From a virus, in the IMG/VR virus record IMGVR_UViG_3300032242_003148, positions 101,607 to 165,606 of that record: 64,000 nt of DNA; one strand, 5' to 3'. Shown one piece after another: positions 2,255 through 63,985 of the stretch. The translations under genes and the position numbers were made by a program. Below the pieces are notes generated by a model. The model had not been told where the DNA came from and ran no database searches. It saw nothing but the letters and a program-made list of their open reading frames with translations. The number at the start of each line of letters is the position of its first letter. Within the stretch, counting starts at the first letter, position 1.

Positions 2255-3211
2255 TTACTTGAAGGTAACCTTTACTGCGCCCTTCACGTTACCGATTGCG
2301 AGGGAGATGTTCAGGTACTGGAAGTACTCAAGGAAGTATGCTTCGTTCTTCATGAACACTGTGAGCGGCTGGAGCCTGTAGTACTTACCTAAGAACTCCT
2401 CAGAAGAGAAGAGATAGATAACACCATCAGGAACGAGATCACGCTTGATTGTGTAGATGGGCTTCACACCAAGAAGAGTCTTGGAGGGGAGACCATTAAC
2501 AAACATATCCTGGGCGAGATCACCACCAACTTCCGAGCGACCCATTTTCACGAAGTCGTCAGCAGTTACTGTGTTCATCAGCATAACACCCTTGCTCTCA
2601 CCGCCATCTGGCTGTGAAGGACCAAAGGGAACCTGGAGGCGCTTGATAACCTTGAAGGCTTCTGCAACAGTCTCACGTGTGATACCACCGGAGATGCTAA
2701 CGTTCTGAGGAAGGCTCAGGCCGTTTGCGCTGTTAGCTGTATCGGGTGAACCGATATTGCTGTTAATAGTGTTGATGAAGCTGGTGTCGATCTGAGTAGC
2801 GATGTCCTTGGTGCTGAGTTCGAGCATGATTGCACGAATATCATAGTCATAGGTACGAAGCTTATCGATGTCCTTGTTATACTTAGGTGACACGATGCGG
2901 CTGAAGTACGAAGGATAACGTGTACCCTTGAACTGGAAGGCATCAGGAACAACACCGAGGGGGACTGTCACAGCGGGGGCTGTATCAGGCTCACGGTCGT
3001 TCCACTTAACAAGGAGCTCAGGATCCTGGGCCTTGTCGAGCTCATCATTGCTGAGATCAATAGGGGTGAGGATCTTTTCTGCGAAGCTTTCTTCACGGAG
3101 TTTGTTGCGGGTGAACTGCTGGGCGGAAACAGCTGCCTGCTTCTCTTGTCCAGCCTTTACCATCTCAACGAATGTGTCGTTGAACACTTTTTGGTCGGCG
3201 ATTTTTTCCAT
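2255..3211 (-). CDS. Major capsid protein (putative, HK97-type)
   Basis: Encodes 318 aa. Features that fit a major capsid protein: an N-terminal helical region (about residues 1-50) with K-x-A sites (MVKAGQ, EKQAA) like those proposed as prohead protease sites; a central region with P-domain and E-loop-like character; and a C-terminal beta-rich end. The gene sits after a decoration-like gene with a strong promoter and leader, is followed by a strong terminator, and lies downstream of scaffold and protease genes, the standard head-gene order. Codon use appears more GC-rich than neighbouring genes, as in highly expressed genes. The fold is not proven here. Confidence 0.75.
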   Translation of the reverse strand: MEKIADQKVFNDTFVEMVKAGQEKQAAVSAQQFTRNKLREESFAEKILTPIDLSNDELDKAQDPELLVKWNDREPDTAPAVTVPLGVVPDAFQFKGTRYPSYFSRIVSPKYNKDIDKLRTYDYDIRAIMLELSTKDIATQIDTSFINTINSNIGSPDTANSANGLSLPQNVSISGGITRETVAEAFKVIKRLQVPFGPSQPDGGESKGVMLMNTVTADDFVKMGRSEVGGDLAQDMFVNGLPSKTLLGVKPIYTIKRDLVPDGVIYLFSSEEFLGKYYRLQPLTVFMKNEAYFLEYFQYLNISLAIGNVKGAVKVTFK

Positions 3212-6413: not shown

Positions 6414-7844
6414 TTAACGATTCTGGATCAGAGCGTTTAAAATAGTTTGATCGTCTAATTTACCGCTCTCATCCATATATCTCAGAGCCGCTAATTTATA
6501 GCTCAAATATTGTTGAGCTAATTCATCTGCAGCTGCATCTTTTTCGATCTCTTTCTTGTTAGGGGAAGCTTTTAAATCGCCAGGAATTCTCTTGATGATT
6601 GTAATGCGCATAACCCTACCATGAGCAGGCTGATCAAATAAAGAATGCCCTTCAAACAGACGACTGACAAGTCCTTTTATTTCCTTGGGAATTATTCCTA
6701 AGTCTGAAGGATCAAATTTTTCATTGTTAACAGCTCCCGCCTCTGAGTCTTCGTCCTCTTCCATATGAGAGAATCCAGAAGGTAAACGCTTCTTCATCTT
6801 ATCAATAATCTTTTCATCTTTTAATTTATCTCCGAAAAGATATTTAACAAAGTCTGCTGGAGAAAAAACAATACCATGATCAGCTAGGGCCTTTAATAGC
6901 TTGCTAGGATCTTGTTTGCGGAGCTCATCAATTGTTTCATCTGAAATACCATCAGCATGGTTAATCTTTGATGCTTCATGAGCAACATATTTCTCAGTAG
7001 AATCTTTGGGTCCCTTTGTTGCTATTCCCTCAAGATGCTTCTCCATTTCAGCTAACTTACCAACAAGTGCACGCTTATCGCTCGCCTTTTTAGAAATAAG
7101 AAAGTCGTTAGCCTCTGAAGGAGCTCTAAAGTCAGAATAAATTTGAAGATAGTCTGATGTAAGTTTAGGTGCGTATTCAGAAGCTAACTTAAGAGACATT
7201 CCGATTCTATCAGCAGGACGCCCAACAATAGATAACTCAAACCAATGAGGGTCTACGTTATCCATGCCACACATTTCTCCACGCTTGTTTAATTCACCTA
7301 TCTGGCTAGGAACGTGTTCACAACGTCCACGATCATCTTTGGCTTCGTGTCCGCACCATGTACAAACATCGCTAGCAACCTTTGCGGCCATAGAAACGTT
7401 GATCTGCTTGCCTTCTGCTAACTTTTGAATTTCTTCTGCACACTTATCATTATCTAAACCAACGATAAGCTCTATTCTCTTCATCTCAGGATTGTACGCC
7501 GCGGCTTTGATATTTCCGTACTTAGGATCATGTGGTTTGTTCTTGTGGTGACGGTTTAATGCCCTGCCATCATACTTACCATCTTTACCCTTAGAACCTG
7601 ACTTAACGAATGTCTTATAGTGCTCTAAACATTCAGCTTCTTTAAAAAGATCACCATTGCGGTTCTGGCCAATACCCTCATAAGCGCCAAGAGCAATAAC
7701 ATGCACGTCTGTTTGATTTGCTGTTTTTTCAACACGCAGCTCATCCTGCACAGCGGCTAACTTCTTCAAGTCAGCTGGTTCATTAACTATGTTTACAGGA
7801 GGAACATCGTAGTTCCAATCTGAGGTAGAATTAAATTTAATCAT
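6414..7844 (-). CDS. Prohead maturation protease (putative)
   Basis: Encodes 476 aa. The N-terminal 230 residues fit a herpesvirus-like prohead protease: VIALGAYEGIGQNRNGDLF, then a His-rich ALNRHHKNKPHDPKYGNI with candidate catalytic His, a KRIELIVGLD strand, the candidate Ser in INVSMAAKVASD, then HWFELSIVGRPADRIGMSL. A cysteine/histidine knuckle (CTWCGHEAKDDRGRCEH) is inserted after the Ser. The C-terminal half is helical and charged and may act as a removable core domain. It overlaps the upstream gene by one base and precedes the scaffold and capsid genes, the usual order. Confidence 0.65.
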   Translation of the reverse strand: MIKFNSTSDWNYDVPPVNIVNEPADLKKLAAVQDELRVEKTANQTDVHVIALGAYEGIGQNRNGDLFKEAECLEHYKTFVKSGSKGKDGKYDGRALNRHHKNKPHDPKYGNIKAAAYNPEMKRIELIVGLDNDKCAEEIQKLAEGKQINVSMAAKVASDVCTWCGHEAKDDRGRCEHVPSQIGELNKRGEMCGMDNVDPHWFELSIVGRPADRIGMSLKLASEYAPKLTSDYLQIYSDFRAPSEANDFLISKKASDKRALVGKLAEMEKHLEGIATKGPKDSTEKYVAHEASKINHADGISDETIDELRKQDPSKLLKALADHGIVFSPADFVKYLFGDKLKDEKIIDKMKKRLPSGFSHMEEDEDSEAGAVNNEKFDPSDLGIIPKEIKGLVSRLFEGHSLFDQPAHGRVMRITIIKRIPGDLKASPNKKEIEKDAAADELAQQYLSYKLAALRYMDESGKLDDQTILNALIQNR

Positions 7845-22359: not shown

Positions 22360-22791
22360 TTAATAGCTTATCTTGCCGCCCTTGAAATTAGGGTCTGGAA
22401 CATAAGTATTATTAAGGTGCTGATTGTTTTGATGTCTGCTTTCAGCCAGGGAAGGACCACTAAAGAGATCAAGGCCTGTATTATGGGCGGCGCTATTTAA
22501 CATACCACCAACGTTAGTCTTAAAGTTTTGAAAACCAGTTCCGATAGCGTTACCAATATTATGTGCTGTGTTACCGAGTGCGTGACCCGCAGCCCCAATA
22601 CCATTACCCACAGATTGCAGGCCTTTAGTTATGGTGTCGTCTTCACCTAAGGGCAAGTGGTTGTACTTGGATGCTGATATTTCTGAATTTAAGGGAATTG
22701 TGGCCTGCTTTAAAATCTCGATAGCTTCATTCTTGCTAACTCCATAGTCAGCTGCTCTTTTTAGGAATCCATTAATAAATGCTTCGTTCAT
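22360..22791 (-). CDS. Putative minor head protein, member 1 of three-gene family
   Basis: Encodes 143 aa. The N-terminal 30 residues (MNEAFINGFLKRAADYGVSK, then NEAIEILKQA) are shared with the two genes just upstream. The C-terminal part (NIGNAIGTGFQNFKTNVGGM, LNSAAHNTG) matches the C-terminus of the gene at 23225. A glycine-rich central helix lies between. The helix ends in ILKQATIP, a K-x-A site. A cleaved, packaged internal head protein is inferred. Confidence 0.65.
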   Translation of the reverse strand: MNEAFINGFLKRAADYGVSKNEAIEILKQATIPLNSEISASKYNHLPLGEDDTITKGLQSVGNGIGAAGHALGNTAHNIGNAIGTGFQNFKTNVGGMLNSAAHNTGLDLFSGPSLAESRHQNNQHLNNTYVPDPNFKGGKISY

Positions 22792-23150
22792 AAGTTTTTC
22801 TTTTTTTCTTCTTCTGTTTTTCGTTTCTGCTTTCTTTTTTCTCCAAGGTTTTCTCTAAGCACGTGATCAGCTTTATACTTACGACCAATGTGATAACCGG
22901 TATATCCGGGAATAAGGAGCCCCTTACCAAGTCCATAAGGTGTGCGGTGTACTTCTTCAGCCTCATCTTCATCCATGTCATTATATCTACCAATAAGTGC
23001 ACCTATAGCAGAAGGAACTCCAAGATTACCAATATCATACATAGGTCCAATGATGGCCTGCTTCTCTAAAATCTCGATAGCTTCAGCTTCGCTAACTCCA
23101 TAGTCAGCTGCTCTTTTTACAAATCCATTAATAAATGCTTGTTCGCTCAT
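22788..23150 (-). CDS. Putative minor head protein, member 2 of three-gene family
   Basis: Encodes 120 aa: MSEQAFINGFVKRAADYGVS, then EAEAIEILEKQAIIGP. The helix and K-x-A site match its neighbours; the rest differs and ends in a very basic K/E/R-rich tail (KRKQKRKTEEEKKKN pattern). The basic tail could bind DNA inside the head. Overlaps the next gene by ATGA-type coupling. Confidence 0.65.
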   Translation of the reverse strand: MSEQAFINGFVKRAADYGVSEAEAIEILEKQAIIGPMYDIGNLGVPSAIGALIGRYNDMDEDEAEEVHRTPYGLGKGLLIPGYTGYHIGRKYKADHVLRENLGEKRKQKRKTEEEKKKNL

Positions 23151-23224
23151 ATAGTTATTTGTTATTTCTGCTTTAGTACGTCTTCGTTCATATAGTTATT
23201 TCTATACCCTGCTCAGTGCTTTAT

Positions 23225-23698
23225 CTAGGGAGTGATATCTGTATTATGGGCGGCACTATTTAAAGCACCGCCGACATTATCGTTACGCTTTTGAAAATAA
23301 TCTCCAACAGTGTTACCAATATTACGTGCTTTGTCAGCAACAAAGTTATTAATTTCACGCCCTACGGCTGGTATGGCGTGTGATGTGCCAGCTAAAGTGG
23401 CGCCTGCGCCCCACAGGGCTGGAATACCGGTGTTGCGGATTGATTGACCGACCGACGGTGGCGTCAATCCGCTAGTTAAAGGGCTAGCAACTCCACGTTC
23501 AGCACCTAGACCAGCACGAAGGCTAGCGCCAAGGCCAGGGAATGCTTTGTTTGCTATGTTACCCACTCTACCTAAACCGCCTAATATAGGACCGATGGGG
23601 GCTGCGGACTTTTCATTCAAAATACTAATTGCTTCATTCTCACTAACTCCATAGTCCGCTGCTCTTTTTAAGAATCCGTTTATAAAGGCTTCGTTCAT
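23225..23698 (-). CDS. Putative minor head protein, member 3 of three-gene family
   Basis: Encodes 157 aa. The N-terminal helix MNEAFINGFLKRAADYGVSE is nearly identical to that at 22360, ending in ILNEKSAAPIG. A glycine-rich hydrophobic middle follows (PALWGAGATLAGTSHAIPAV), and the C-terminus NVGGALNSAAHNTDITP matches that at 22360. The stretch just before the ATG has repeats of AAAACTT and no SD site. Confidence 0.65.
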   Translation of the reverse strand: MNEAFINGFLKRAADYGVSENEAISILNEKSAAPIGPILGGLGRVGNIANKAFPGLGASLRAGLGAERGVASPLTSGLTPPSVGQSIRNTGIPALWGAGATLAGTSHAIPAVGREINNFVADKARNIGNTVGDYFQKRNDNVGGALNSAAHNTDITP

Positions 23699-23729
23699 AA
23701 GTTTTAAGTTTTAAGTTTTTCTGATTTTA

Positions 23730-24056
23730 TTAACTTTCCCCCTCTTCGTCAAGATTTTCTGGATTATCAACAAATCTCAAACCACATCTCCAGAGCACAT
23801 GGGCAAGGTCATCGCTAATCTCGTCCACCACATCATTGTCCAACTCCCAAATAGCGCAATGTATTAGTTCATCTAATAGGGTAGCCAACATCTCCTTTGG
23901 TGTTTGGTTAGGGTCAACAACTACACTCTTACCCTTTGTTGCAGGGTTGTCTGTTCTGCCCCTATTCTGAGTTTCAGTTATCAGATTAGGGGTTAATGAA
24001 AATTTATACCTCCTACCTCTCACGGTAATAGAGTGAATGTTCTCTAGCTGCTTCAT
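23730..24056 (-). CDS. Zincin-like protein with altered HExxH (DELIH)
   Basis: Encodes 108 aa. The segment EMLATLLDELIHCAIWELDN, then VVDEISDDLAHVLWRCGLRF follows the pattern of small phage zincin-like proteins (LLHE.lHA....L.....E.....L...LWR.G.R), but the first His of HExxH is Asp here. It may be inactive or use another ligand. First gene of the minus-strand head operon, facing the divergent HUH-like gene across a 147-nt spacer. Confidence 0.6.
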   Translation of the reverse strand: MKQLENIHSITVRGRRYKFSLTPNLITETQNRGRTDNPATKGKSVVVDPNQTPKEMLATLLDELIHCAIWELDNDVVDEISDDLAHVLWRCGLRFVDNPENLDEEGES

Positions 24057-29533: not shown

Positions 29534-29735
29534 ACAAATCTATATCCCGTCTTTAAAAATAAAAGGAACATACCTGGAAGAAATCGGCGGAGGAACTGAC
29601 AAAGTTATGTACCCAGGTAAGACTATAGAGGTTGAGTTAGGCGCAGAAGATTTCTTATCAGAAGAGGACTACCATAGTGCATGGATCCTTATCACAAAGG
29701 CAGTTCAAAAGAAACTAACAGATGGAGCCGCCTAA
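29523..29735 (+). CDS. Small hypothetical protein
   Basis: Encodes 70 aa from ATG 29523 (MHAKQIYIPSLKIKGTYLEE). An upstream in-frame ATG exists inside the previous gene and is unlikely. Beta-rich first half, then an acidic helix (EDFLSEEDYHSAWILITKAV). It overlaps the beta N-terminal RNA polymerase gene by 14 nt. Confidence 0.55.
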   Translation: MHAKQIYIPSLKIKGTYLEEIGGGTDKVMYPGKTIEVELGAEDFLSEEDYHSAWILITKAVQKKLTDGAA

Positions 29736-30375
29736 AAACACCAGAGCTTTCTTTGATCCTCACCAGTTAAACAAGCTTATTCAAAAGCATGTACTGGATG
29801 GGTTTAAATCCAAGCTAGGGCTGATAGAGACCAACGACCACAAGCTAGAGGTTGATAACTTAGAGCTGCACCCGAAGAATTTCTCAATAGAAGAGCAGAA
29901 GAGTGCTGTGCTTGAGAAAAGAGATCTTACGTATCCTATAAAAGGAGATATACATCTGGTGGATAAGAAAACCGGAGGTAGGATAGAATCAAAGCATATC
30001 ACTATAGCCAATATTCCTTTTGTAACAGATAGAAACACAGTTATTTACAACGGCAGCGAATACGAACCTATTCATCAGCAGAGATTATTGCCAGGGGTAT
30101 ATTCAAGGATTCGTCAGAGCGGCGAGGCCGAAGCCCATATCAACCCAGCACCTAGAACAGGCATGGGCGGTAGAATATTATTCTTTCCTGACAAACAGTT
30201 ATTTGTGCTTATGATTCAAAACACCCAGATCAAGCTATATGGAGTAATGCATGACTTAGGTATACCTGATAGCCAGATGCAAAATAGCTGGGGAGAAGAA
30301 ATCTACCTGGCAAATAAAAGAATGTATACAGGCGATGAGATAGACAAACTCTACAACAAAATATTTTTAGGATAA
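29722..30375 (+). CDS. RNA polymerase beta subunit, N-terminal fragment
   Basis: Encodes 217 aa corresponding to the protrusion (beta1) region. The segment ITIANIPFVTDRNTVIYNGS, then EYEPIHQQRLLPGVYSRI matches bacterial G.IPFMTE.GTFIINGTERV and V.QL.RSPGVYF. The following part (GGRILFFPDKQLFVLMIQNT, then IKLYGVMHDLGIPDSQ) corresponds to the ..R.....R.DRRRKLP.T.L.ALG segment; the protein stops there, before any lobe domain. Last gene of the plus-strand virion operon, unlike the other polymerase genes, which are on the minus strand. Confidence 0.85.
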   Translation: MEPPKNTRAFFDPHQLNKLIQKHVLDGFKSKLGLIETNDHKLEVDNLELHPKNFSIEEQKSAVLEKRDLTYPIKGDIHLVDKKTGGRIESKHITIANIPFVTDRNTVIYNGSEYEPIHQQRLLPGVYSRIRQSGEAEAHINPAPRTGMGGRILFFPDKQLFVLMIQNTQIKLYGVMHDLGIPDSQMQNSWGEEIYLANKRMYTGDEIDKLYNKIFLG

Positions 30376-32221: not shown

Positions 32222-33943
32222 ATGTCAAATCTAAGTATCAATCCCTCCACAGTAGAGCTGGGTCCACAGTATACTGTGCAATATCAGCCTGGATATTATG
32301 CAAGTAGAGATATTGTTGTGCACACCACAGCTATTGGTACAGTTGGTAGTACGTCTCTGATAGTAGATAATGCTTCTAATCTATCTAGAGGAGACCTGGT
32401 AGAGGCTTACGGAATACCAGAACAGACTAATATATCAAATATCTCTGGCACTACAATAACTCTTAGCAGCGCGATAACACAAACAATACCTATAGGCACT
32501 GCGCTATATATAGGGTCAATCTCAAAACCATCAAGCTGCATACTTCCTTCTGCTATATCCCCAAGCCTAGACCTAGGTTCTCCTATAGCTCCTATAGATC
32601 TCAGCTGTCATTATGCTTTTCCGCAAGTATATCTAACTCCCCCCATTTATAATGCTCCACAAACATTTGTGGCTTGTGAAGATTTTACAGCTTCTGTGGA
32701 CATTAGCCTACGAAATGCCATAACAGGGAATATAACGGCCACACCCACAAGTTCTCCACATTGTGGATTAGCCATCACAGGTCTTTTAGACGTAAACACC
32801 TGTGCCAATTTTACAGCCACGTCAAATATAACCTTTTCAGGTGCGGCACAAAACAGCTCATTAAAATTAACTGCAAGAGGACAACCGGATTGTGGTGTAG
32901 ACATTAAAGGTAATATAGATGTGCAAGCCTGCTCGGCATTTACATCTACTGTTAAATTTGATGTACCCGACGCTATGGCCGGCTCGGTTTTTTCTGTAAC
33001 TCCTAAAGGCCCATCTGACTGTGGGTTAGACCTAGACCTAGCCCTAAAATTAAATTTAAATGCGTGTGAAAAAATAACACCTATTATTAATTTTACATTT
33101 CCAGAAGCAATGGCTGGATCTACAGCTGTTTTTACTGCATCTCAAAACCCCCCTGACTGTCCTATTGAACTAGACCTTAACTTGGCACTAAACGCATGTA
33201 CAACATTCACTGCCGGCGGGGGAATAAGTGTTGGTGGTGGTGGCGCTAGCGGGTTTATTGGAGTTAGGGCGAACAAACCGCCAGATTGTGGCGTTTTTCT
33301 TGCTGGAAATATAAATGTACCAGCTGCGTGTACAGGGATTACCGTGGGTGGTAATGTGGGTATATCGGGCGCCGCGCAAGGCAGCATTACGTTAACGCCA
33401 TCTGGAGGCCCACCAGGTTGTGGGGTGCAGCTTGGCGGGAATATACATGTTAACTGCCCAACCGCTAACAGCTCCTTTCGTCCTGCTGGGGCAGCATGTA
33501 CTGGCGCAATCAGACTTGTCAGCACCGGAGGAGGGAACGCATGCGGAATTGACCTACAGGGTGACTTAAAAATACAAGCCTGTACTAAATTTTCAATAGA
33601 TACCAGTGCGTATCAATTTTTACATCTAGCGGCCATACGTAAACCAACATTTGCTATAACACAAATGGGTTCGGCAGATGATAGCGGTCAATGTAATCTG
33701 AAGTTAACAGGAACAATGGATATTCCATGCCCATCAATTCTGCCCTCCGAAATCAACTGGGGCGGGATAGTTAATAGCGCAGCCACAACGTTTAATATAG
33801 TTGTAGACCCCGTGAACTGCAATCAGTTTAAATTAAAAGGAAATGTAGCATTTGATGGGGCATGGACAAACGTAACAATTTGTAACAATGGAGTAACGTC
33901 AACTATGCAAGTTTGGGCCAGGGCCCTATCAACCACAAATTAA
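32222..33943 (+). CDS. Cys-paired repeat protein, putative tail fibre/adhesin
   Basis: Encodes 573 aa. After about 150 residues of beta-rich sequence come seven or eight repeats of about 45 aa with the pattern P-D-C-G-hydrophobic-x-hydrophobic-x-G-N-hydrophobic-x-V-x-A-C-x-x-F, then a beta segment with GAAQ/DAMAGS (e.g. PDCGVDIKGNIDVQACSAF; PPDCGVFLAGNINVPAAC). Each repeat has two Cys, likely a disulfide or metal pair. The last 90 residues differ. No signal peptide. The stop TAA shares the palindrome TTAA with the stop of the convergent RNA polymerase gene. An extracellular virion appendage is likely. Confidence 0.6.
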   Translation: MSNLSINPSTVELGPQYTVQYQPGYYASRDIVVHTTAIGTVGSTSLIVDNASNLSRGDLVEAYGIPEQTNISNISGTTITLSSAITQTIPIGTALYIGSISKPSSCILPSAISPSLDLGSPIAPIDLSCHYAFPQVYLTPPIYNAPQTFVACEDFTASVDISLRNAITGNITATPTSSPHCGLAITGLLDVNTCANFTATSNITFSGAAQNSSLKLTARGQPDCGVDIKGNIDVQACSAFTSTVKFDVPDAMAGSVFSVTPKGPSDCGLDLDLALKLNLNACEKITPIINFTFPEAMAGSTAVFTASQNPPDCPIELDLNLALNACTTFTAGGGISVGGGGASGFIGVRANKPPDCGVFLAGNINVPAACTGITVGGNVGISGAAQGSITLTPSGGPPGCGVQLGGNIHVNCPTANSSFRPAGAACTGAIRLVSTGGGNACGIDLQGDLKIQACTKFSIDTSAYQFLHLAAIRKPTFAITQMGSADDSGQCNLKLTGTMDIPCPSILPSEINWGGIVNSAATTFNIVVDPVNCNQFKLKGNVAFDGAWTNVTICNNGVTSTMQVWARALSTTN

Positions 33944-34632
33944 CTCTCAGGAATCTCTACCACAGAATCCAAAAAAGTTTGATGGTCTATCCATATTTTT
34001 TTACCATGACCGTCCTCTACTAAGCGGTATAACTTTCCATCATCACCTTTTCTACAGTTTTTTACAAAGAAGTTTACAACACCTATTGTTTCAGCTTCTA
34101 CAGTTTGTATAGGATCCATTAATCCGAACTGGCTCTCGTTAACACTTCTAGAGCTATCAGGAATACTCTCAGTACTTCCTATACCGCCCTCTCCCATCTT
34201 ACTCACCTTGTGGGCAAGCATATATTGCTCCATAGGGTTAACTCCCTCAATATTTTGACTAAGCGCATTACCAACAAACACGCTTTTGATTTGCGGTGTA
34301 AAGAACCCACTGTGGAGCCAGGATAGATTTCTTTTCTGTCTGAGCTTCATCTTAGCCTTCATTTGAATTTTTCCAGCATCATGTTCAATGTGCTCTTTAA
34401 CATAGTCCTCGGCTCCCAAGAATTTTGAGTACGCCAGGTTATCACGATCATCAGGACTAATCTCACGGCTATGCACCTTGAGTAGTTTTCCAGTGGTTTG
34501 CAATAACACCTGAGGGCTCACGTGATTAACACTCATTCCTAGAGTCTTGCCCATAACACCGATGTCTAATCGAATGTTGCCAAAGTACTCTTTAATCTTC
34601 TGAATTTTTTCTGCTTTAGAGGTGGTATCCAT
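33940..34632 (-). CDS. RNA polymerase beta subunit, fork/Rif-pocket fragment
   Basis: Encodes 230 aa. EISPDDRDNLAYSKFLGAED matches the DD.DHL.NRR...GELL region; FTPQIKSVFVGNALSQNIEG then VNPMEQYMLAHKVSKMGEGG aligns with the Rif region (..S.LSQFMDQ.NPLSE..HKRR.SALGPGG); the end (SQFGLMDPIQTVEAETIGVV) aligns with HYGR.CPIETPEGPNIGL. N132-P133 and S144 align with E. coli N519-P520 and S531; position H526 is Leu here. It fills the gap between the fragments at 29722 and 19319. No lobe domain is seen. The promoter abuts the start. Confidence 0.85.
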   Translation of the reverse strand: MDTTSKAEKIQKIKEYFGNIRLDIGVMGKTLGMSVNHVSPQVLLQTTGKLLKVHSREISPDDRDNLAYSKFLGAEDYVKEHIEHDAGKIQMKAKMKLRQKRNLSWLHSGFFTPQIKSVFVGNALSQNIEGVNPMEQYMLAHKVSKMGEGGIGSTESIPDSSRSVNESQFGLMDPIQTVEAETIGVVNFFVKNCRKGDDGKLYRLVEDGHGKKIWIDHQTFLDSVVEIPES

Positions 34633-37490: not shown

Positions 37491-37565
37491 GCCTGTGTAG
37501 CTCAGTGGTAGAGCAATGGTTTTGTAAACCATCGGTCGTCGGTTCAATCCCGACCTCAGGCTCCA
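37491..37565 (+). tRNA. tRNA-Thr (anticodon TGT)
   Basis: 75-nt cloverleaf: acceptor GCCTGTG pairs with CTCAGGC (one T-T mismatch), D arm GCTC...GAGC, anticodon stem ATGGT/ACCAT with loop TTTGTAA (anticodon TGT, Thr), T arm GTCGG-TTCAATC-CCGAC, then T and an encoded CCA (37563-37565). It lies 4 nt after a gene and 5 nt before the next, so it is likely excised from an mRNA. Confidence 0.9.
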
Positions 37566-37570
37566 CCTCT

Positions 37571-38221
37571 ATGTCACAAAGTCAAAACAAGATTATCAAA
37601 CTGTTATCAGCGGCATTTAAAGGGAAAAAACTTTCTTTTAGTGGATTTAGAAATCTTGTAGAGGGAGCCGTACTCAGGGGTGAAGGTAATATAATAATAC
37701 TTAGTGGTATTCATGGTGATGAGCCGGCAGGTAATATTGCTGCTGAACTATTCAGAGGTACCAAGGGAGTAAAAGTAATTTCAGGAATAAATAGAACAGG
37801 TAAAAGAAGAATAGATGGCAAAGACCCTAACCGCCACTTTGGTACGCCTGATGAGGGAGAACTTCAAGAGAATATATTAAACGCAATATTTGAAGATCAG
37901 CCTAGACTAGTTATTAGCTTGCACGAAGATAATGAGTCCACAGGTATGTATGCATATAGCTCTAAAACAATGGCTCCTGTTATTGCAGAGGTAATAAAAT
38001 CTTTAGACGTTCCTATAATATCAACCATACACGGAGACACAGCAAAAGACGGAGTTATCTCAGGAGGAAAACAACCATTTCGTGGAACTCTAGAAAGAAC
38101 TTTAAGAAGTTATAGTATACCATATTGTACTCTAGAAACACCCACCTGCTGGGATTTAAAAGTACGCTCTACTTGTCTATCCAAGGCTGTATCTGGTATA
38201 ATAGAGCATGTGCGCATGTGA
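37571..38221 (+). CDS. M14-type zinc carboxypeptidase / aspartoacylase-like protein
   Basis: Encodes 216 aa from ATG 37571; an upstream reading frame runs through the tRNA and is not coding. Active-site residues: ILSGIHGDEPAG (zinc ligands H48 and E51), DPNRHF (N87, R88), ISLHED (third zinc ligand H118) and TLETP (catalytic E189). Short for a peptidase and close to succinylglutamate desuccinylase/aspartoacylase or gamma-D-glutamyl peptidase types. No signal peptide. May hydrolyse a peptidoglycan stem or a small amide; substrate not readable. Overlaps the methyltransferase gene by 14 nt. Confidence 0.75.
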   Translation: MSQSQNKIIKLLSAAFKGKKLSFSGFRNLVEGAVLRGEGNIIILSGIHGDEPAGNIAAELFRGTKGVKVISGINRTGKRRIDGKDPNRHFGTPDEGELQENILNAIFEDQPRLVISLHEDNESTGMYAYSSKTMAPVIAEVIKSLDVPIISTIHGDTAKDGVISGGKQPFRGTLERTLRSYSIPYCTLETPTCWDLKVRSTCLSKAVSGIIEHVRM

Positions 38222-57230: not shown

Positions 57231-57471
57231 TTACCTAGAAGATCATATGCTCAAGGCAGATGGTTATGATGATTGTGTATTGGGTATTGCTGAACGTGCC
57301 GGTAAATTACCTGTACTAGCCTATTCCACAGACAAGATAATAGACAAACTAGTACAAGACGACGGTATGACCAGGGACGAAGCAGAAGAGTGGTTTAGCT
57401 ATAATATAGTAGACGCCTGGGTAGGTTCAGGCACACCTATCTTTGTTAGACAGATTCAGTTTGAGGATTAA
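57217..57471 (+). CDS. Small acidic hypothetical protein
   Basis: Encodes 84 aa: MSLDDYLEDHMLKADGYDDC, then VLGIAERAGKLPVLAYSTDK, EEWFSYNIVDAWVGSGTPIF. The pattern of LAYS...I...L...G...EA.EWF.YN..GA..G..TP.F is shared with small phage proteins. Its end overlaps the convergent gene by 26 nt. Confidence 0.65.
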   Translation: MSLDDYLEDHMLKADGYDDCVLGIAERAGKLPVLAYSTDKIIDKLVQDDGMTRDEAEEWFSYNIVDAWVGSGTPIFVRQIQFED

Positions 57472-60070
57472 TCAAACTGCTGGGCACTATGTGCTTAGGT
57501 GCGTGTATCTTGAACCCTGACTTGATGTGGGTGATGCCTACATATCCACGATTCAGGTGACTATCTACTTTAAATGCCTTTGGGTTCTTCTCTAGCATTT
57601 TTCTGAGCAACTCGTTCTTATGAACATAGTCTTTCTGGTCACTCATTTTTTTAGCTTTTATCAGCTGTGAGAGCTCTATGGACTTGGCTGTTTTGCTAAG
57701 CTTTTCTTTTTTACTTTTTTCATGAGCCAGCCATGCAGCAATAGAGCTTGCGGTTATTCCCGCCCCAGCTAATGCCCCTAAAGCTCCGCGTATGCGCTGG
57801 CGGCGTATATTCTTTTTAGCTATATCAAATATAGCTTTAGGCATAGCTTTTCTGCCTTTATCAATATCTTTATTAACAATTTTCGCTCTATTAAATGCAT
57901 CTACTTTAGATTTGGCTAATGCTTCCTCGTCTTGTAAAAAATCTATAATTTTATTAGGGTCATCTTCAAGATGCAAACCTCCGGGTATACTTGCGGCAAA
58001 TTCTCTATTTCCTCTGTTCCAGTGATCTGTATTAGGCATTGATGCCTCCCCATTAAGCCATGCTTTCCATCTATCCGCTAAAGAATTTGGTGTGTAATTA
58101 CCATATTCGTATCCCCACACAGCAGGTACAACATTACGTCCTCCGCTCTGTAACATACTTTCTGTGAGTGAGCTTGTTCCTGTGGACCCCATGTGCATAT
58201 CCGCAATTCTCTGTAAACCAACAAAAGTTTTATTATCTAACTTACCATGTATTGGAATAACGTGAGGCACATTTGCTAATGCTGCTCTTAATTCTTTGTT
58301 AGCTCCCGCACTAGCAGTGAGCGCAATTATTTTAACATTTTTTATACCTCTACTCTCTAATTCATTAGAGAGTTCAATTGCCCTCTGACCAACAAAGTCC
58401 CCTCTTCCACTTCCTGATACTGTGATTATTTTTTTCCCTCTCAATTCTTTTATTCTGTCTGCTAGACTAGGTTTAGACTTAGCCAAATCATCAAGAATAA
58501 TATCTTTGGGCGTTAAATCTCTAGCGGTCTCTAATGCTTTGTTTAATATTAGTGGTGTGAATGTTTTATTAGTCCTTATTGCATTAACACCTCTATTTTT
58601 CATTCCTTCAAGCTGTGGACTATTTTGTCCATAGTATAAAATATGATCTCCTTTTCCTAAGCCATTAAATGTGCTACCACTCATAGACTGATCTGCACTA
58701 TGAAATAGGTCTGACATTATACCAACACGACTGTAATAAGGCCTAGCATTGCTATGATTGAAAAATTCATTATGTTGGCGTTTACCTGCATTCATTCCAG
58801 GATCATCAAATGGAGCAAAATGCCCCAAACCAGTATCTGCAATTACATTATAATTAGGCTTCATTTGCCTAGGATCAACTATACCAGATTGATTACGTAT
58901 GATTTTACTTAAATTGAATTTGCGTAGGGACGGGTCTTTTGTTTTTGCTTCTTGAAGTAACTCGAATAGCGCATCTCCCGGGTTACTATGACCACCACCA
59001 ATATCCCAGCTGTTATACTCTGGATTCATTTTACCGTACGTAACAGCTATATTCCTGCTTGGGTTTAGCGCTCTTTGTGTGTTATATCCAGTTATACCTG
59101 CCCCTAGTCCAACGCCAGATGCAACACCCAAGTCAACAGCCAAATCATTATCTTCTCCTGTTTTATTTTTTAATTTATCGTAAGCTTGATAGCCTTTAAT
59201 TGCAGATAATGTTGAACCTGCAGCTAAAAGAGGTAAACGTCCTTTTAAAATTTTTTGAAGTATTGTGGGAACTGTTTGGTGATAAGCTCTTGAAGTACCC
59301 AATACTGTGGCTCTATTATTACCAATCATTCTTAGTACAGTTCCAGCTCCCTCTAACGTTTTAGAGTTACTGAGTATTTCTTTTCTAATTTTTTCTGCCG
59401 CTTGGGGTCCGAACTTACTGCTGTAGAGATTGAGTAAATTTTTTAAAAATCCTTCTGTTTCAGGTAAATTGACATTTTTTAAAAACTCGGCGCTTTCTGG
59501 TCCCGCATTATGAAAAGCCTCTTCTATGTGGTGTTTTCTAAGCTCGTTCAGTGAAATATTAGGATCACTATACATTTTGTAGTGATTAATTGCATGGCTA
59601 TTTAAATTATTTTTAATATCTCCTATAACTTGAGGAATTCCTCTTATAGCCTGAAAGAGAGATTTATTCTTTAAATGATATCCGAGATGATCTTTTATTT
59701 TTCCTAATATTGCACCTTGCTGCAAATTTTTCAAATTAATGCTTCCGGAACGAAGCCCTAATACTTTGCTTTGTGTAATTCCTCTAGCTCCATTGATATA
59801 TGTGTCCATAAACCTTTGCGCCTGATCTGGAGTTAATTTGTTTAAACCCCCAACTAAAAGCTGGTCTATTTCTGTTCTATTTTTACCCAATGCGTCATTC
59901 CATATATCAAATTTTTTACTTATATTTTTTACATCATTAAAAAATTTACCTGCGCCTAGAGTTGCTCCACCAGCAATAATAGGGGTACCCAGAGACAAAT
60001 ACGGATTAGATTTTTCCTGTTCTGTATAAATCTGAGGCGTCTGGGGTAAACTGGCAAGTTCTTCTGGCAT
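57446..60070 (-). CDS. Large virion-like protein with embedded GT-B glycosyltransferase domain
   Basis: Encodes 874 aa. Residues 25-45 are a glycine-rich hydrophobic segment (YLSLGTPIIAGGATLGAGKF); 50-330 are helical; 310-330 is another hydrophobic stretch (DLGVASGVGLGAGITGYN). From about 340 to 690 the sequence resembles a MurG/GT28-type enzyme: first half with NSWDIGGGHSNPGDALFELL (GGGH..A..AL), second half with KIITVSGSGRGDFVGQRAIE, VIPIHGKLDN, and RIADMHMGSTGTSSLTESML (the AD..I...G..S..E motif). The last 150 residues include AKKNIRRQRIRGALGALAGA and more helix. Likely carried in the virion; acceptor unknown. Confidence 0.65.
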   Translation of the reverse strand: MPEELASLPQTPQIYTEQEKSNPYLSLGTPIIAGGATLGAGKFFNDVKNISKKFDIWNDALGKNRTEIDQLLVGGLNKLTPDQAQRFMDTYINGARGITQSKVLGLRSGSINLKNLQQGAILGKIKDHLGYHLKNKSLFQAIRGIPQVIGDIKNNLNSHAINHYKMYSDPNISLNELRKHHIEEAFHNAGPESAEFLKNVNLPETEGFLKNLLNLYSSKFGPQAAEKIRKEILSNSKTLEGAGTVLRMIGNNRATVLGTSRAYHQTVPTILQKILKGRLPLLAAGSTLSAIKGYQAYDKLKNKTGEDNDLAVDLGVASGVGLGAGITGYNTQRALNPSRNIAVTYGKMNPEYNSWDIGGGHSNPGDALFELLQEAKTKDPSLRKFNLSKIIRNQSGIVDPRQMKPNYNVIADTGLGHFAPFDDPGMNAGKRQHNEFFNHSNARPYYSRVGIMSDLFHSADQSMSGSTFNGLGKGDHILYYGQNSPQLEGMKNRGVNAIRTNKTFTPLILNKALETARDLTPKDIILDDLAKSKPSLADRIKELRGKKIITVSGSGRGDFVGQRAIELSNELESRGIKNVKIIALTASAGANKELRAALANVPHVIPIHGKLDNKTFVGLQRIADMHMGSTGTSSLTESMLQSGGRNVVPAVWGYEYGNYTPNSLADRWKAWLNGEASMPNTDHWNRGNREFAASIPGGLHLEDDPNKIIDFLQDEEALAKSKVDAFNRAKIVNKDIDKGRKAMPKAIFDIAKKNIRRQRIRGALGALAGAGITASSIAAWLAHEKSKKEKLSKTAKSIELSQLIKAKKMSDQKDYVHKNELLRKMLEKNPKAFKVDSHLNRGYVGITHIKSGFKIHAPKHIVPSSLINPQTESV

Positions 60071-60114: not shown

Positions 60115-61788
60115 TTATATTCCGACAGGAGCTAAATTTTTGGCTCGCTCACCTAAAGTATACTCGCCGTCTTGCTTGTCTTGGGCATCTGCTGTTTTAA
60201 TAGGATCGTCCAAACCAAAAGATAACTGGGGAGGATTTTTCAATTTTTCTAGTCTGCTATCTCTATTTGCTACATGAGCTAGCCTTTCAGCTTCTCTTTT
60301 GGCACGGGCTGCACGAACTAGTCCACCTTTACTAGATGCTGCTCTGTGTAACTCAGGATTTTTATAGCGGAGATTGCGATAGTAACTAGAAGCTAATTTA
60401 GCTCCAGAGTCTTTTAATAACCCACTCATGTCCAGCATTCCTTGCTTTTCTTTTTTACCTTTTTTAGCTTTTCTTTTTTTATTGTAATAAGCATTAATTC
60501 CTCCAATACCTGCACCTACGCCGCCAGTAGCAGTCAAATAAGTTAGAAAAGCCGGCAGCATGCTAGCAATATTTTTAGCTTTTAAGTGTCCCGGAAGAGA
60601 TGAGCGCATTATATTAACAGCACCTCTGCGAGAAGCTTCAAACTCAGGCACTAGTATTCCAGCATTAAGTAGTGAGGCTATACCCAATCCCTTTGCGGCC
60701 CCTGTGGCTACGTTTGTATCGTCTTTTGTGGCGCCATATATACCCAAGCCAGAAACAGTTCCAAGAAGGGGTGAAAATTTATGGGTGAGCGGATATAGGT
60801 GTTTTTGCATACCCCCCACAATTCCCTTGTTTTTTGATATATTTGCATGTCCTAACTCATGAGCGATAATTCCTGGCTTGTACATATTCTCATGAGATAC
60901 ATCTACATTACCTATAATTTTATTCCCTTTATCGTCTATATATGGCTTAACATCTATATAGTGGGCATTGTCTGGCCTGCCACTTCCTTTACCAATACCT
61001 AAAAAATTAATATTTTTACCTACCCCAGAATTGTTCAGCAAGTCTTCAACAACATTAGCTTCGGCCTTGGGTATTCCTTTTAAACCAAGCATCATTGCTT
61101 TACCTGATAGATAATTTGCTCCACCTCCAAGTATTCCTCCTATAAGGGATAGCTCTTCTGCCTTTTGTTTATCTCTAAGAATTTTTGCTACAGGATGATT
61201 ATCTTTTTCCTCCTGAGCGGCTATATATTCCTTTACCTGTTGTCGTTTTTGTTCTGGAGATAGCTTACGATAATTTCTAGTCGATAAACGATTAAGACCA
61301 TAAGCAGCACCGCCTCCGGCTAAAATCCCACCTGCCCCATAACCTAATGGTTTTAGTATTTTCATTAGTTTGGATGCACTAGGTGATGTGGTACCATGTC
61401 CAATCATTCCACCTAGCGCCCCACCAAAAAGTCCTCCAACACCACTAACAACCTTATCACCAAAATCTAATTCTTCATTAGACGGAAGATAATTATTAAC
61501 AATTTTTTCTATTTCAGTGTTACTAAGCCTTGGTGGGTTGTTATGTTTTTCCGGGTCAAAATTTAAAAATCCAGGGTATTTTTTATTCTTTTGTTCTTGA
61601 TGCCGCTGGGCACGCAATAAATCTAAAAGTCCGGTTATAGTGTCATTAACATCAGCTTTTTTAACTTTCTTGGGGAGTTTCTCCCCCCTGCTGGATTCAT
61701 TCCACTCATCCACATCAACACCCTGACGCTCAAGCTCTTTGCGATGGATATTAAAGTATGCAGCTTGGGCTTTGGACTTGTATGGCAT
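60115..61788 (-). CDS. Virion-like protein with Zn_peptidase_2 (YugP-type) domain
   Basis: Encodes 557 aa. The N-terminus MPYKSKAQAAYFNIHRKELE is a start common in phage proteins. Glycine-rich membrane segments at about 112-130 (VVSGVGGLFGGALGGMIGHG), 145-165 (GYGAGGILAGGGAAYG) and 212-230. From about 275: zinc motif KPGIIAHELGHANIS (HExxH), then a helical pair and NAGILVPEFEASRRGAVNIM, matching the PVEFDASRRA signature of membrane zinc metalloproteases. The C-terminal 100 residues are basic. Active-site residues are intact. Likely delivered with the genome. Confidence 0.7.
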   Translation of the reverse strand: MPYKSKAQAAYFNIHRKELERQGVDVDEWNESSRGEKLPKKVKKADVNDTITGLLDLLRAQRHQEQKNKKYPGFLNFDPEKHNNPPRLSNTEIEKIVNNYLPSNEELDFGDKVVSGVGGLFGGALGGMIGHGTTSPSASKLMKILKPLGYGAGGILAGGGAAYGLNRLSTRNYRKLSPEQKRQQVKEYIAAQEEKDNHPVAKILRDKQKAEELSLIGGILGGGANYLSGKAMMLGLKGIPKAEANVVEDLLNNSGVGKNINFLGIGKGSGRPDNAHYIDVKPYIDDKGNKIIGNVDVSHENMYKPGIIAHELGHANISKNKGIVGGMQKHLYPLTHKFSPLLGTVSGLGIYGATKDDTNVATGAAKGLGIASLLNAGILVPEFEASRRGAVNIMRSSLPGHLKAKNIASMLPAFLTYLTATGGVGAGIGGINAYYNKKRKAKKGKKEKQGMLDMSGLLKDSGAKLASSYYRNLRYKNPELHRAASSKGGLVRAARAKREAERLAHVANRDSRLEKLKNPPQLSFGLDDPIKTADAQDKQDGEYTLGERAKNLAPVGI

Positions 61789-61839: not shown

Positions 61840-63096
61840 TTAGGCTGGAATTTGAACAATTTGATCAGCTATAGGACAACCAAGCCCTGTTGCCAGATCA
61901 TACCCAGTATGTGCAGGTTGGCCATTTGATCCCTCAGTAATATCTCTAAAGTATGTAGAGTAATCGGTTCTAGCTAAGCTATATGCTTTTTCGTTGAACG
62001 GTGTTGTACCTGCATTCCCCAGACTGGCGCGTCTAGCTAGAAGCGCTGACATAATTACAGCGCTCACACTAGTCCCCCCAAATACATACCAACCACCTTG
62101 GCTATCACCTATTGGTGTAAAGTAAACTGAAACACCAGTATATGGGTCAGCAACAAGACTCAAATCAGGAGTACTACGGAATAAACTAGTATTAAAATCT
62201 GCCTGATAATCTGGAGCTGGTATATATTCACTAACACCACCACCGCCCCTATCCCAAGCAGTTTCTGATGTAACTGTATTTGAAGACGAATTATAGATCA
62301 AAGATGTTCCTCCCACAGAGACCACACTTGGGGATACTGAAGGATAACTCACAACACCACCCTTGTCACCCGCTGCAGCAACATAGTTCACTCCACGGTG
62401 CGCAAAGTAGTATTCTAATTTAGCCTGTCCTTGTCTCTCCCTGAATACTGTACTATATGGGTCGTAGTCATAACCAGTATTCTCCCAATCATTTGAACCC
62501 CAGCTCATATTAATCACATCTGCTTTAACAAAAATAGCAGCATATCTCACAGCGTTCAAAAGGGTTTCTTGTTGATCATTGCCAGCCACTACAACCACAA
62601 TTTTTGCTCCTGGGGCCATAGCGTGAGCCCATTGTACGTCAAGAGTAGCTTCTTGCGCCCAATCTAATCCCCATGGTATACCGCCCATGGTTTGCGAAGA
62701 ATATACAATTGGCGATTTTACTGGGTAATGATGGATATGAACTGTTGTGGTGGGAATTCCGTAGGCGGCGCAGAAAGTGTTCAAATCTTTTTGAATATTC
62801 GGATTGTTTACTGCAACTATTATCGCGATAGTCTTTCCACGACCATCTCCTATACTTGATATTTTATCAAATCCGTAGGCTTTTGCAATTTGGCTTGGAC
62901 TATAACCTGACCCCGGTAAAGGTATTGGTAGTGCAGGTACGCTTTGTTGCACTGATGAACCAATGGTATTGTTTAAGTTCCCATCATTATAATTATATTT
63001 CCATTTTAAGTGAGGAATAGCTTTTTTAATCTCACCCAAACCAGTTTTTTTTATATAGTCTAAACGAGACTTTTCATTTATATCAGGAATATCCAT
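61840..63096 (-). CDS. Sedolisin-type (S53) serine-carboxyl protease
   Basis: Encodes 418 aa. Catalytic residues: E149 and D153 in WAQEATLDVQWAHAMAP (E...D spacing of four), oxyanion Asp D244 in AAAGDKGG, and the Ser S343 in VFGGTSVSAV. The calcium site is present at the end: YFRDITEGSNG and GYDLATGLGCP. The central pattern VINMSWGSNDWE and SYPSVSPSVVSVGGTSL also match. The usual long prodomain is missing; only about 85 residues precede the fold, so it may not need self-activation. No signal peptide. In an operon with the zinc protease. Confidence 0.85.
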   Translation of the reverse strand: MDIPDINEKSRLDYIKKTGLGEIKKAIPHLKWKYNYNDGNLNNTIGSSVQQSVPALPIPLPGSGYSPSQIAKAYGFDKISSIGDGRGKTIAIIVAVNNPNIQKDLNTFCAAYGIPTTTVHIHHYPVKSPIVYSSQTMGGIPWGLDWAQEATLDVQWAHAMAPGAKIVVVVAGNDQQETLLNAVRYAAIFVKADVINMSWGSNDWENTGYDYDPYSTVFRERQGQAKLEYYFAHRGVNYVAAAGDKGGVVSYPSVSPSVVSVGGTSLIYNSSSNTVTSETAWDRGGGGVSEYIPAPDYQADFNTSLFRSTPDLSLVADPYTGVSVYFTPIGDSQGGWYVFGGTSVSAVIMSALLARRASLGNAGTTPFNEKAYSLARTDYSTYFRDITEGSNGQPAHTGYDLATGLGCPIADQIVQIPA

Positions 63097-63098
63097 TT

Positions 63099-63578
63099 TT
63101 AGAATTCAGGCTGTGTATTATCCACAGCTCTATCATACTTACCAGCTCTGTAGATTTCCATAGCTTTCTCTAGCGCTTTAGGATTTTTTACTAGTTTTGT
63201 AGGGTCTATAGCCCAGTTACGCAATGCATATGCTCTACGGGGGGTGGGCTTTGTTTGAAAAGCATTGCCGCCATGTCTGCTCTTAAAAGCTTTCCACCTT
63301 TTTATCTGGCGCTCATCATCCTCCATTCTACGCCCCTCGCTATATCTCTTATACCATTGTAGCCAACCATGAGGATCTTCCTTATGGTACCAATGAGCCG
63401 GCCATTCTGGTAGGCTAGCTAATCTAGGCGCAGATTTAGGGCCATACACTTCACTATATGCACCCATCTCTTTTAATTGGGTTGGACTATAGTCAGGCTT
63501 GAACTCCTCATGAAGCCCCGCCAGCTTGTTCAGATAATTCTTAATTACTGAGCTAGGAATATTATACTTCCCACTCAT
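63099..63578 (-). CDS. Conserved marine phage-type protein (PHGWLQWY motif)
   Basis: Encodes 159 aa. LPEWPAHWYHKEDPHGWLQW, YKRYSEGRRMEDDERQIKRW, KAFKSRHGG is a highly conserved-looking motif set (W..H....DP.GWL.WY..Y..GRR...D..QI.RW). Basic, aromatic. The family is widespread in large phages and eukaryotic DNA viruses to my knowledge; function unknown. Two bases separate it from the sedolisin gene. Confidence 0.7.
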   Translation of the reverse strand: MSGKYNIPSSVIKNYLNKLAGLHEEFKPDYSPTQLKEMGAYSEVYGPKSAPRLASLPEWPAHWYHKEDPHGWLQWYKRYSEGRRMEDDERQIKRWKAFKSRHGGNAFQTKPTPRRAYALRNWAIDPTKLVKNPKALEKAMEIYRAGKYDRAVDNTQPEF

Positions 63579-63700: not shown

Positions 63701-63985
63701 TTAACTGCAGTTCCACTTTCTCAGCGCTAAAGCTTTACGTGTAGGTTTTCCATGCTCATCTTTCATAGGCCCCTTTACACCGCCCATACGTGCACAGAAT
63801 GAAGCTTTTCTACCTTTTGCTTCACCCTTAGGATTCTTCTGAGTAACAGGAGCTTTTAGATGGCTGCCTGTCTCACGGTTATATTTATCTCTGCCGTGTT
63901 GAGTTAATCCACCTGATGGATTCTTATCTTCTTTGTGCATAACAACATTAGCCTTTGCTAACTTGTTCAATGCCTCTATATACAT
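63701..63985 (-). CDS. DUF6321-like protein
   Basis: Encodes 94 aa from ATG 63985 (MYIEALNKLAKANVVMHKED). The core KNPSGGLTQHGRDKYNRETG, SHLKAPVTQKNPKGEAKGRK, ASFCARMGGVKGPMKDEHGK, PTRKALALRKWNCS matches the DUF6321 pattern found in many marine phages. The first 15 residues include LAKANVV, like the packaging-type helix seen in head proteins here. Function unknown; may be a virion component. Confidence 0.8.
   Translation of the reverse strand: MYIEALNKLAKANVVMHKEDKNPSGGLTQHGRDKYNRETGSHLKAPVTQKNPKGEAKGRKASFCARMGGVKGPMKDEHGKPTRKALALRKWNCS

Follow-up and report, generated by a model that had tools for sequence, protein, structure and literature searches.

A gene predicted to encode a sedolisin (S53 protease) raises two questions of the phage that carries it: where such an enzyme came from, and what it would do there. 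S53 enzymes are acid proteases that usually need acid. The gene lies in a window of 64,000 nucleotides at the end of a linear virus record of 165,606 bases. For a known enzyme family this is a new setting, since by our database and literature searches sedolisins are undescribed in phages: S53 found no match among 50,697 phage records, and searches of the literature on S53 proteins in phages or viruses turned up nothing relevant.

The carrier of the gene is a true phage, large and uncultured. Besides homologues of a capsid protein and a head maturation protease (Table 1), its record encodes a multisubunit RNA polymerase whose relatives are those of Salmonella phage Arash and Vibrio phage D69; a polymerase scan retrieved sister phages with polymerases 92, 86, 78 and 67% identical. 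Where Arash has a single beta-type RNA polymerase protein of 1,525 residues (gp206), this phage has three ORFs at three places (19319–22306, 29722–30375 and 33940–34632; 995, 217 and 230 residues). Several genes of the window have no visible Shine–Dalgarno sequence and start after an A/T-rich stretch, which may bear on the host.

An S53 protease with an intact active site

The phage protein is an S53 (sedolisin/kumamolisin) protease with an intact active site. Its ORF begins with ATG and could be extended upstream by only three codons before a stop. The best solved match is kumamolisin (phmmer E 6e-19; residues 63 to 415), in agreement with the family assignment of the original prediction, and the tetrad that it had listed (E149, D153, D244 and S343) lies at those positions and is invariant in alignments of 13 and of 53 S53 proteins. 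The larger alignment also bears on a proposed calcium site, for which the conserved aspartates D400 (invariant) and D385 (at least 90%) argue at the level of sequence. Structure prediction had been suggested as a check: the AlphaFold2 model (pLDDT 84.9, pTM 0.86, with residues 1–6 and 35–59 poor) is closest to kumamolisins and sedolisin, which fill Foldseek matches 1–15 (E 3e-24; TM up to 0.80, for kumamolisin-As), and subtilisins (S8) rank below. In the GTSxxxP motif GGTS is kept and the near-invariant proline is replaced by Val347, a change that could lower activity. The enzyme is probably active.

A Chthoniobacterales ancestor

The closest relatives of the phage enzyme are chromosomal S53 genes of the Chthoniobacterales (Verrucomicrobiota), at up to 62% identity; the order name is our reading of the 'Spartobacteria' label that these relatives carry. 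In the tree the phage protein is nested within the Chthoniobacterales clade (100/100) as sister of one member, L159 (100/96), with which it shares 57.7% identity over 390 positions. Eight relatives occupy one syntenic chromosomal site, between a gene for a LivH-type permease and a gene of about 230 codons, across genomes; signal-like N termini are present in 8/8, and the eight have a WKYG...DG...N segment in common. Tree and synteny together indicate descent from a prodomain-less, Sec-exported Chthoniobacterales S53. A single-protein IMG/VR scan with the phage sequence returned no relatives, so that alignments had to be used, and a scan with an alignment of the Chthoniobacterales type gave no second viral copy.

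The GC content of the gene is phage-like (41.6% versus 40.5%). From this, and from a tetrad kept at 42% divergence, we argue for selection inside phages.

An exchanged N terminus

A Pfam scan did not find the Pro-kuma_activ prodomain (PF09286) in the phage protein, as had been predicted. We considered loss of the prodomain in the phage and rejected it, because the domain occurs in only 2 of 53 S53 proteins scanned, equal to the number of prodomain controls deliberately included (one is a named control and the other we infer to be the second). The bacterial and other sampled relatives mostly have about 50–100 residues ahead of the catalytic domain, with a signal-like stretch in most. Since the same scan detected no prodomain in the Chthoniobacterales relatives, its absence in the phage was inherited; the state that had been taken as unusual is ancestral to the donor bacterial clade.

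The phage N terminus has no hydrophobic stretch of the Sec type. From residue 28 onward, directly behind a leader that ends in EIKKA, the protein is homologous to the Chthoniobacterales enzymes. The change specific to the phage, as read from these alignments, is loss of a Sec signal peptide and gain of this 26-residue leader.

One gene inserted into a variable locus

Comparison with sister phages shows where the gene entered (Table 1). The nearest of them, with a 92% identical RNA polymerase subunit, has an empty site. In sister phage G010 the 159-residue flanking gene and the next gene (its first 45 residues) are adjacent, and here they stand about 1.3 kb apart with the S53 gene between. A direct repeat beside the insertion, AAGTATRAT, was considered as a clue to mechanism and set aside as too short to claim.

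Table 1. Features of the S53 locus and of the head genes discussed in the text (window coordinates).
Feature	Coordinates	Strand	Basis or remark
Major capsid protein	2255..3211	-	Homologue of annotated Salmonella phage Arash capsid protein
Phage's own head maturation protease (predicted)	6414..7844	-	PHROG 18299, E 2.9e-8
874-aa neighbour	57446..60070	-	C-terminal ~100 aa correspond to C terminus of 236-aa G010 protein
HELGH zinc-peptidase-like neighbour, 557 aa, Gly-rich hydrophobic segments	60115..61788	-	Sub-threshold PF04298; sister G012 has a 32-35% homologue
Portable N-terminal tag, residues 1-45 of zinc-peptidase-like neighbour, ends KKVKKA	61654..61788	-	91% identical to start of otherwise different 236-aa G010 protein
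S53 sedolisin-like serine-carboxyl protease	61840..63096	-	418 aa; phmmer/Foldseek to kumamolisin, invariant tetrad, AlphaFold2
S53 catalytic domain, residues 63-418	61843..62910	-	Aligned to kumamolisin 4-353
S343 nucleophile in GGTSVSAV	62068..62070	-	Usual Pro at 347 is Val
D244, oxyanion Asp	62365..62367	-	Kumamolisin D164
E149 and D153	62638..62652	-	Kumamolisin E78/D82
26-residue phage leader MDIPDINEKSRLDYIKKTGLGEIKKA	63019..63096	-	Stands where bacterial enzymes have a Sec signal peptide; helix 8-18 predicted (AlphaFold2 model)
Conserved flanking protein of 159 aa, at upstream edge of insertion	63099..63578	-	80% identical in G010, there fused behind AstE-like domain
DUF6321 protein, 94 aa, KLA near N terminus	63701..63985	-	PF19846, E 4e-28; C-terminal domain of 502-aa G010 protein

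The flanks had been described as a zinc protease and conserved phage genes. The HELGH motif of the former is present and its Pfam match is sub-threshold (PF04298: 20.5 bits, cut-off 27); as a block, the flanking genes are not conserved. A 236-residue G010 protein joins the N-terminal tag found here on the zinc-peptidase-like protein to the C-terminal tag found here on the 874-residue neighbour (63% identity over residues 773–871 of the latter), and the AstE-like domain of G010 is 39% identical to an AstE-like protein encoded elsewhere in this phage (37505–38221; PF24827). A tRNA-Thr(TGT) gene overlaps the ORF start of this AstE/aspartoacylase-like gene (37491–38221). A similar locus in the second sister, G012, carries a different tagged protein, an HExxH peptidase of its own. 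The 874-residue protein has hydrophobic Gly-rich segments and no Pfam or PHROG match, and its middle looks like a candidate nucleotide-sugar-enzyme fold; PHROGs matched neither the S53 protein nor its immediate neighbours, the DUF6321 protein excepted, and a single-protein IMG/VR scan returned no relatives of the zinc-peptidase-like neighbour. These alignments identify the S53 gene as an insertion of one gene at a variable locus, in which hydrolase domains are swapped between conserved N- and C-terminal tags. A slot of this swap-in, swap-out kind suggests that the gene is optional cargo, whose product is perhaps carried inside the virion.

An S53 gene was absent from 20 related phage records, some of them fragments, by a search that did find S53 in the phage's own record and in nine others. 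This absence and the empty sister site mark the gene as accessory and speak against the role of second maturation protease proposed in the original prediction, whether for proteins of the head or of the tail. A protease would suit a phage with many possible leader-peptide proteins, but the 20 records lacking the gene include a sister whose head genes are the same, the phage already encodes a homologue of head maturation proteases (Table 1), and the S53 gene is of host origin and lies outside the head module; we regard this role as scarcely credible.

A passenger gene without selected function, or a misassembled bacterial fragment, would account for a copy confined to one contig, missing from sister phages and from elsewhere in IMG/VR, and for the unique Val347. 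Both flanks, however, are homologous to a sister phage, the tetrad is intact despite the divergence, GC is phage-like, and bacterial signal peptide and bacterial neighbours are absent. We give this account only a slim chance.

K-x-A leaders in head and locus proteins

The KKA end of the leader has counterparts elsewhere in the phage group. The N-terminal 26 residues of the capsid protein end in EKQA (EKKA in aligned sister phages), and this EK[QK]A is conserved in seven phages; other head proteins have KKQA (at the start of a 301-residue protein), EKTA (the head protease) and VK[QE]A (a 199-residue protein). In head-module proteins of the group a K-x-A site tends to lie 10–45 residues from the start. 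Of 33 head-module proteins, 9 have K[KQE]A, against 4 of a comparison set of 74 replication and tail proteins (p = 0.003). For K[KLQER]A the locus proteins of three phages give 12 of 23, versus 9/74 (p = 0.0002). Both p-values are optimistic, and suggestive only, because the motif was picked after inspection. A K[KQE]A would fall within five positions of the homology boundary by chance in about 0.6% of cases. The zinc-peptidase-like protein and its counterparts in G010 and G012 share a conserved tag that ends in KKA, followed by differing sequence; the 874-residue neighbour is without the motif.

Another N-terminal tag, YxxGFxKRAxxxGxSxxEAxxLLKQA, is repeated on many small proteins of the phage group (L155 in G010, L157 in G012; window 22360–24056). 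Homology of the S53 leader to an FxxGFxKRA tag or to the capsid leader was considered and not retained, being only weak (p 0.02–0.08 for similarity to the capsid leader).

An enzyme freed at lysis would need no packaging step. Made in the cytoplasm and nearly inactive at neutral pH, it would be released at burst and, in an acidic habitat, cut cell-surface or extracellular proteins. Want of a signal peptide and of a prodomain, the extracellular ancestors and the established acid dependence of the family all fit. Such release leaves unexplained both a KKA-ended leader at the homology boundary and the tag-and-cargo composition of the locus, and we judge it unlikely, though a serious competitor.

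Sedolisins in other viruses

IMG/VR scans found about 20 further contigs with S53 genes, some of which may be misclassified bacterial DNA. Six sequences (L017/L018, L019, L021, L117, L120 and L121) form a phage-only lipoprotein clade (100/99) with no cellular member in the sample, a label that may not last because the search patterns restricted which cellular proteins were sampled. Their contigs include a T4-like phage (L018, with terminase, ssDNA-binding protein and UvsX by PHROGs) and contigs of 191–238 kb (jumbo phage), and their lipobox signal marks these enzymes as exported. In BFVD the best viral structural matches are giant-virus sedolisins, and phage matches score like subtilisin-type S8 proteins, far below sedolisins. 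One further record, G004, which has terminase and portal matches, encodes in a late structural operon a signal-less S53 of 664 residues (L024; 7908–9902) that groups with Planctomycetota S53.

The late operon of this unrelated phage, with its terminase and portal genes, would suit a surface-exposed virion enzyme, sited in the tail-fibre or spike region and digesting the host surface layer at adsorption; the locus studied here adjoins tail-fibre-like genes in G010 and G012. The 418-residue protein nevertheless has no tail, fibre or baseplate-binding domain and no fused receptor-binding part, and its neighbours at the locus bear head-type leaders. A surface role of this kind seems to us quite improbable. 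The protein may still be a virion-borne protease, as the original prediction suggested, and for one we would favour cargo of the head interior over an enzyme on the particle surface.

From secreted enzyme to phage protein

On balance we favour the view that an extracellular host sedolisin was captured and refitted as an accessory phage protein made inside the cell. A host-derived, Sec-exported S53 was taken up by the phage and its signal peptide exchanged for the 26-residue leader ending in KKA. The leader may be a capsid-targeting or propeptide sequence akin to those of T4 internal proteins, of the K-x-A kind present in capsid and head proteins. The enzyme would then be packed in the head and would enter the host with the DNA, or be released in active form. 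As it lacks a prodomain, the near-neutral cytoplasmic pH would be its main restraint, and acidic conditions would let it act on host or competing proteins.

The step to head cargo, taken alone, we put at slightly short of an even chance on present analysis. It is preferred because K-x-A leaders recur in head and locus proteins and because T4 offers a precedent. Against it, the other phage S53 proteins are mostly exported lipoproteins, which points to action outside the cytoplasm, and work within the cytoplasm is doubtful for enzymes that usually need acid. A wider tag-and-cargo system, held more tentatively, would use K-x-A leaders to send the S53 protein, the HExxH zinc peptidases and the AstE-like zinc enzyme into the head, so that a swap of signal peptide for leader would make injected phage proteins of secreted host enzymes.

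Donor clade, empty site and leader boundary can all be seen in this case, which plainly shows how a secreted host enzyme becomes a phage protein, by giving up its signal peptide and receiving a phage leader. Should the K-x-A leader serve as a signal for packaging, the remaining tagged proteins in this phage group could be read as a list of virion cargo.

Comparison with known systems

Kumamolisin and kumamolisin-As (PDB 1t1e and 1sio) share with the phage enzyme the S53 fold, the Glu-Asp-Asp-Ser tetrad and the calcium-site acids; kumamolisin has a prodomain of about 190 residues and a signal peptide, whereas the phage protein has neither and carries valine in place of the GTSxxxP proline. The Chthoniobacterales family (L159–L166) is nearer, with about 44–62% identity, the WKYG...DG...N segment on both sides and a prodomain on neither. 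Its members have a Sec signal peptide and often a C-terminal tail rich in Pro, Thr and Ser, where the phage enzyme has its 26-residue leader. The S53 lipoproteins encoded on contigs of T4-like and jumbo phages are likewise prodomain-less and phage-borne, but form a separate clade with a lipobox signal that the protein described here lacks. Giant-virus sedolisins (Terrestrivirus, Sylvanvirus, Barrevirus and Homavirus) differ in being larger proteins of viruses of eukaryotes.

For the leader the closest parallel is T4, in which capsid targeting sequences of about 10–20 residues bring varying, non-conserved proteins into the head and so into the host (PMC9026906, PMC7411985). The internal proteins and Alt of T4 are variable, non-conserved cargo with a short leader at the N terminus (PMC9026906), to which we liken the S53 leader. 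One point against head packaging is that the prohead proteases of T4, phiKZ and SPN3US cleave after Glu and not after K-x-A (PMC9026906). The T4 leaders terminate in a Glu motif at which gp21 cuts, and the S53 leader ends in KKA.
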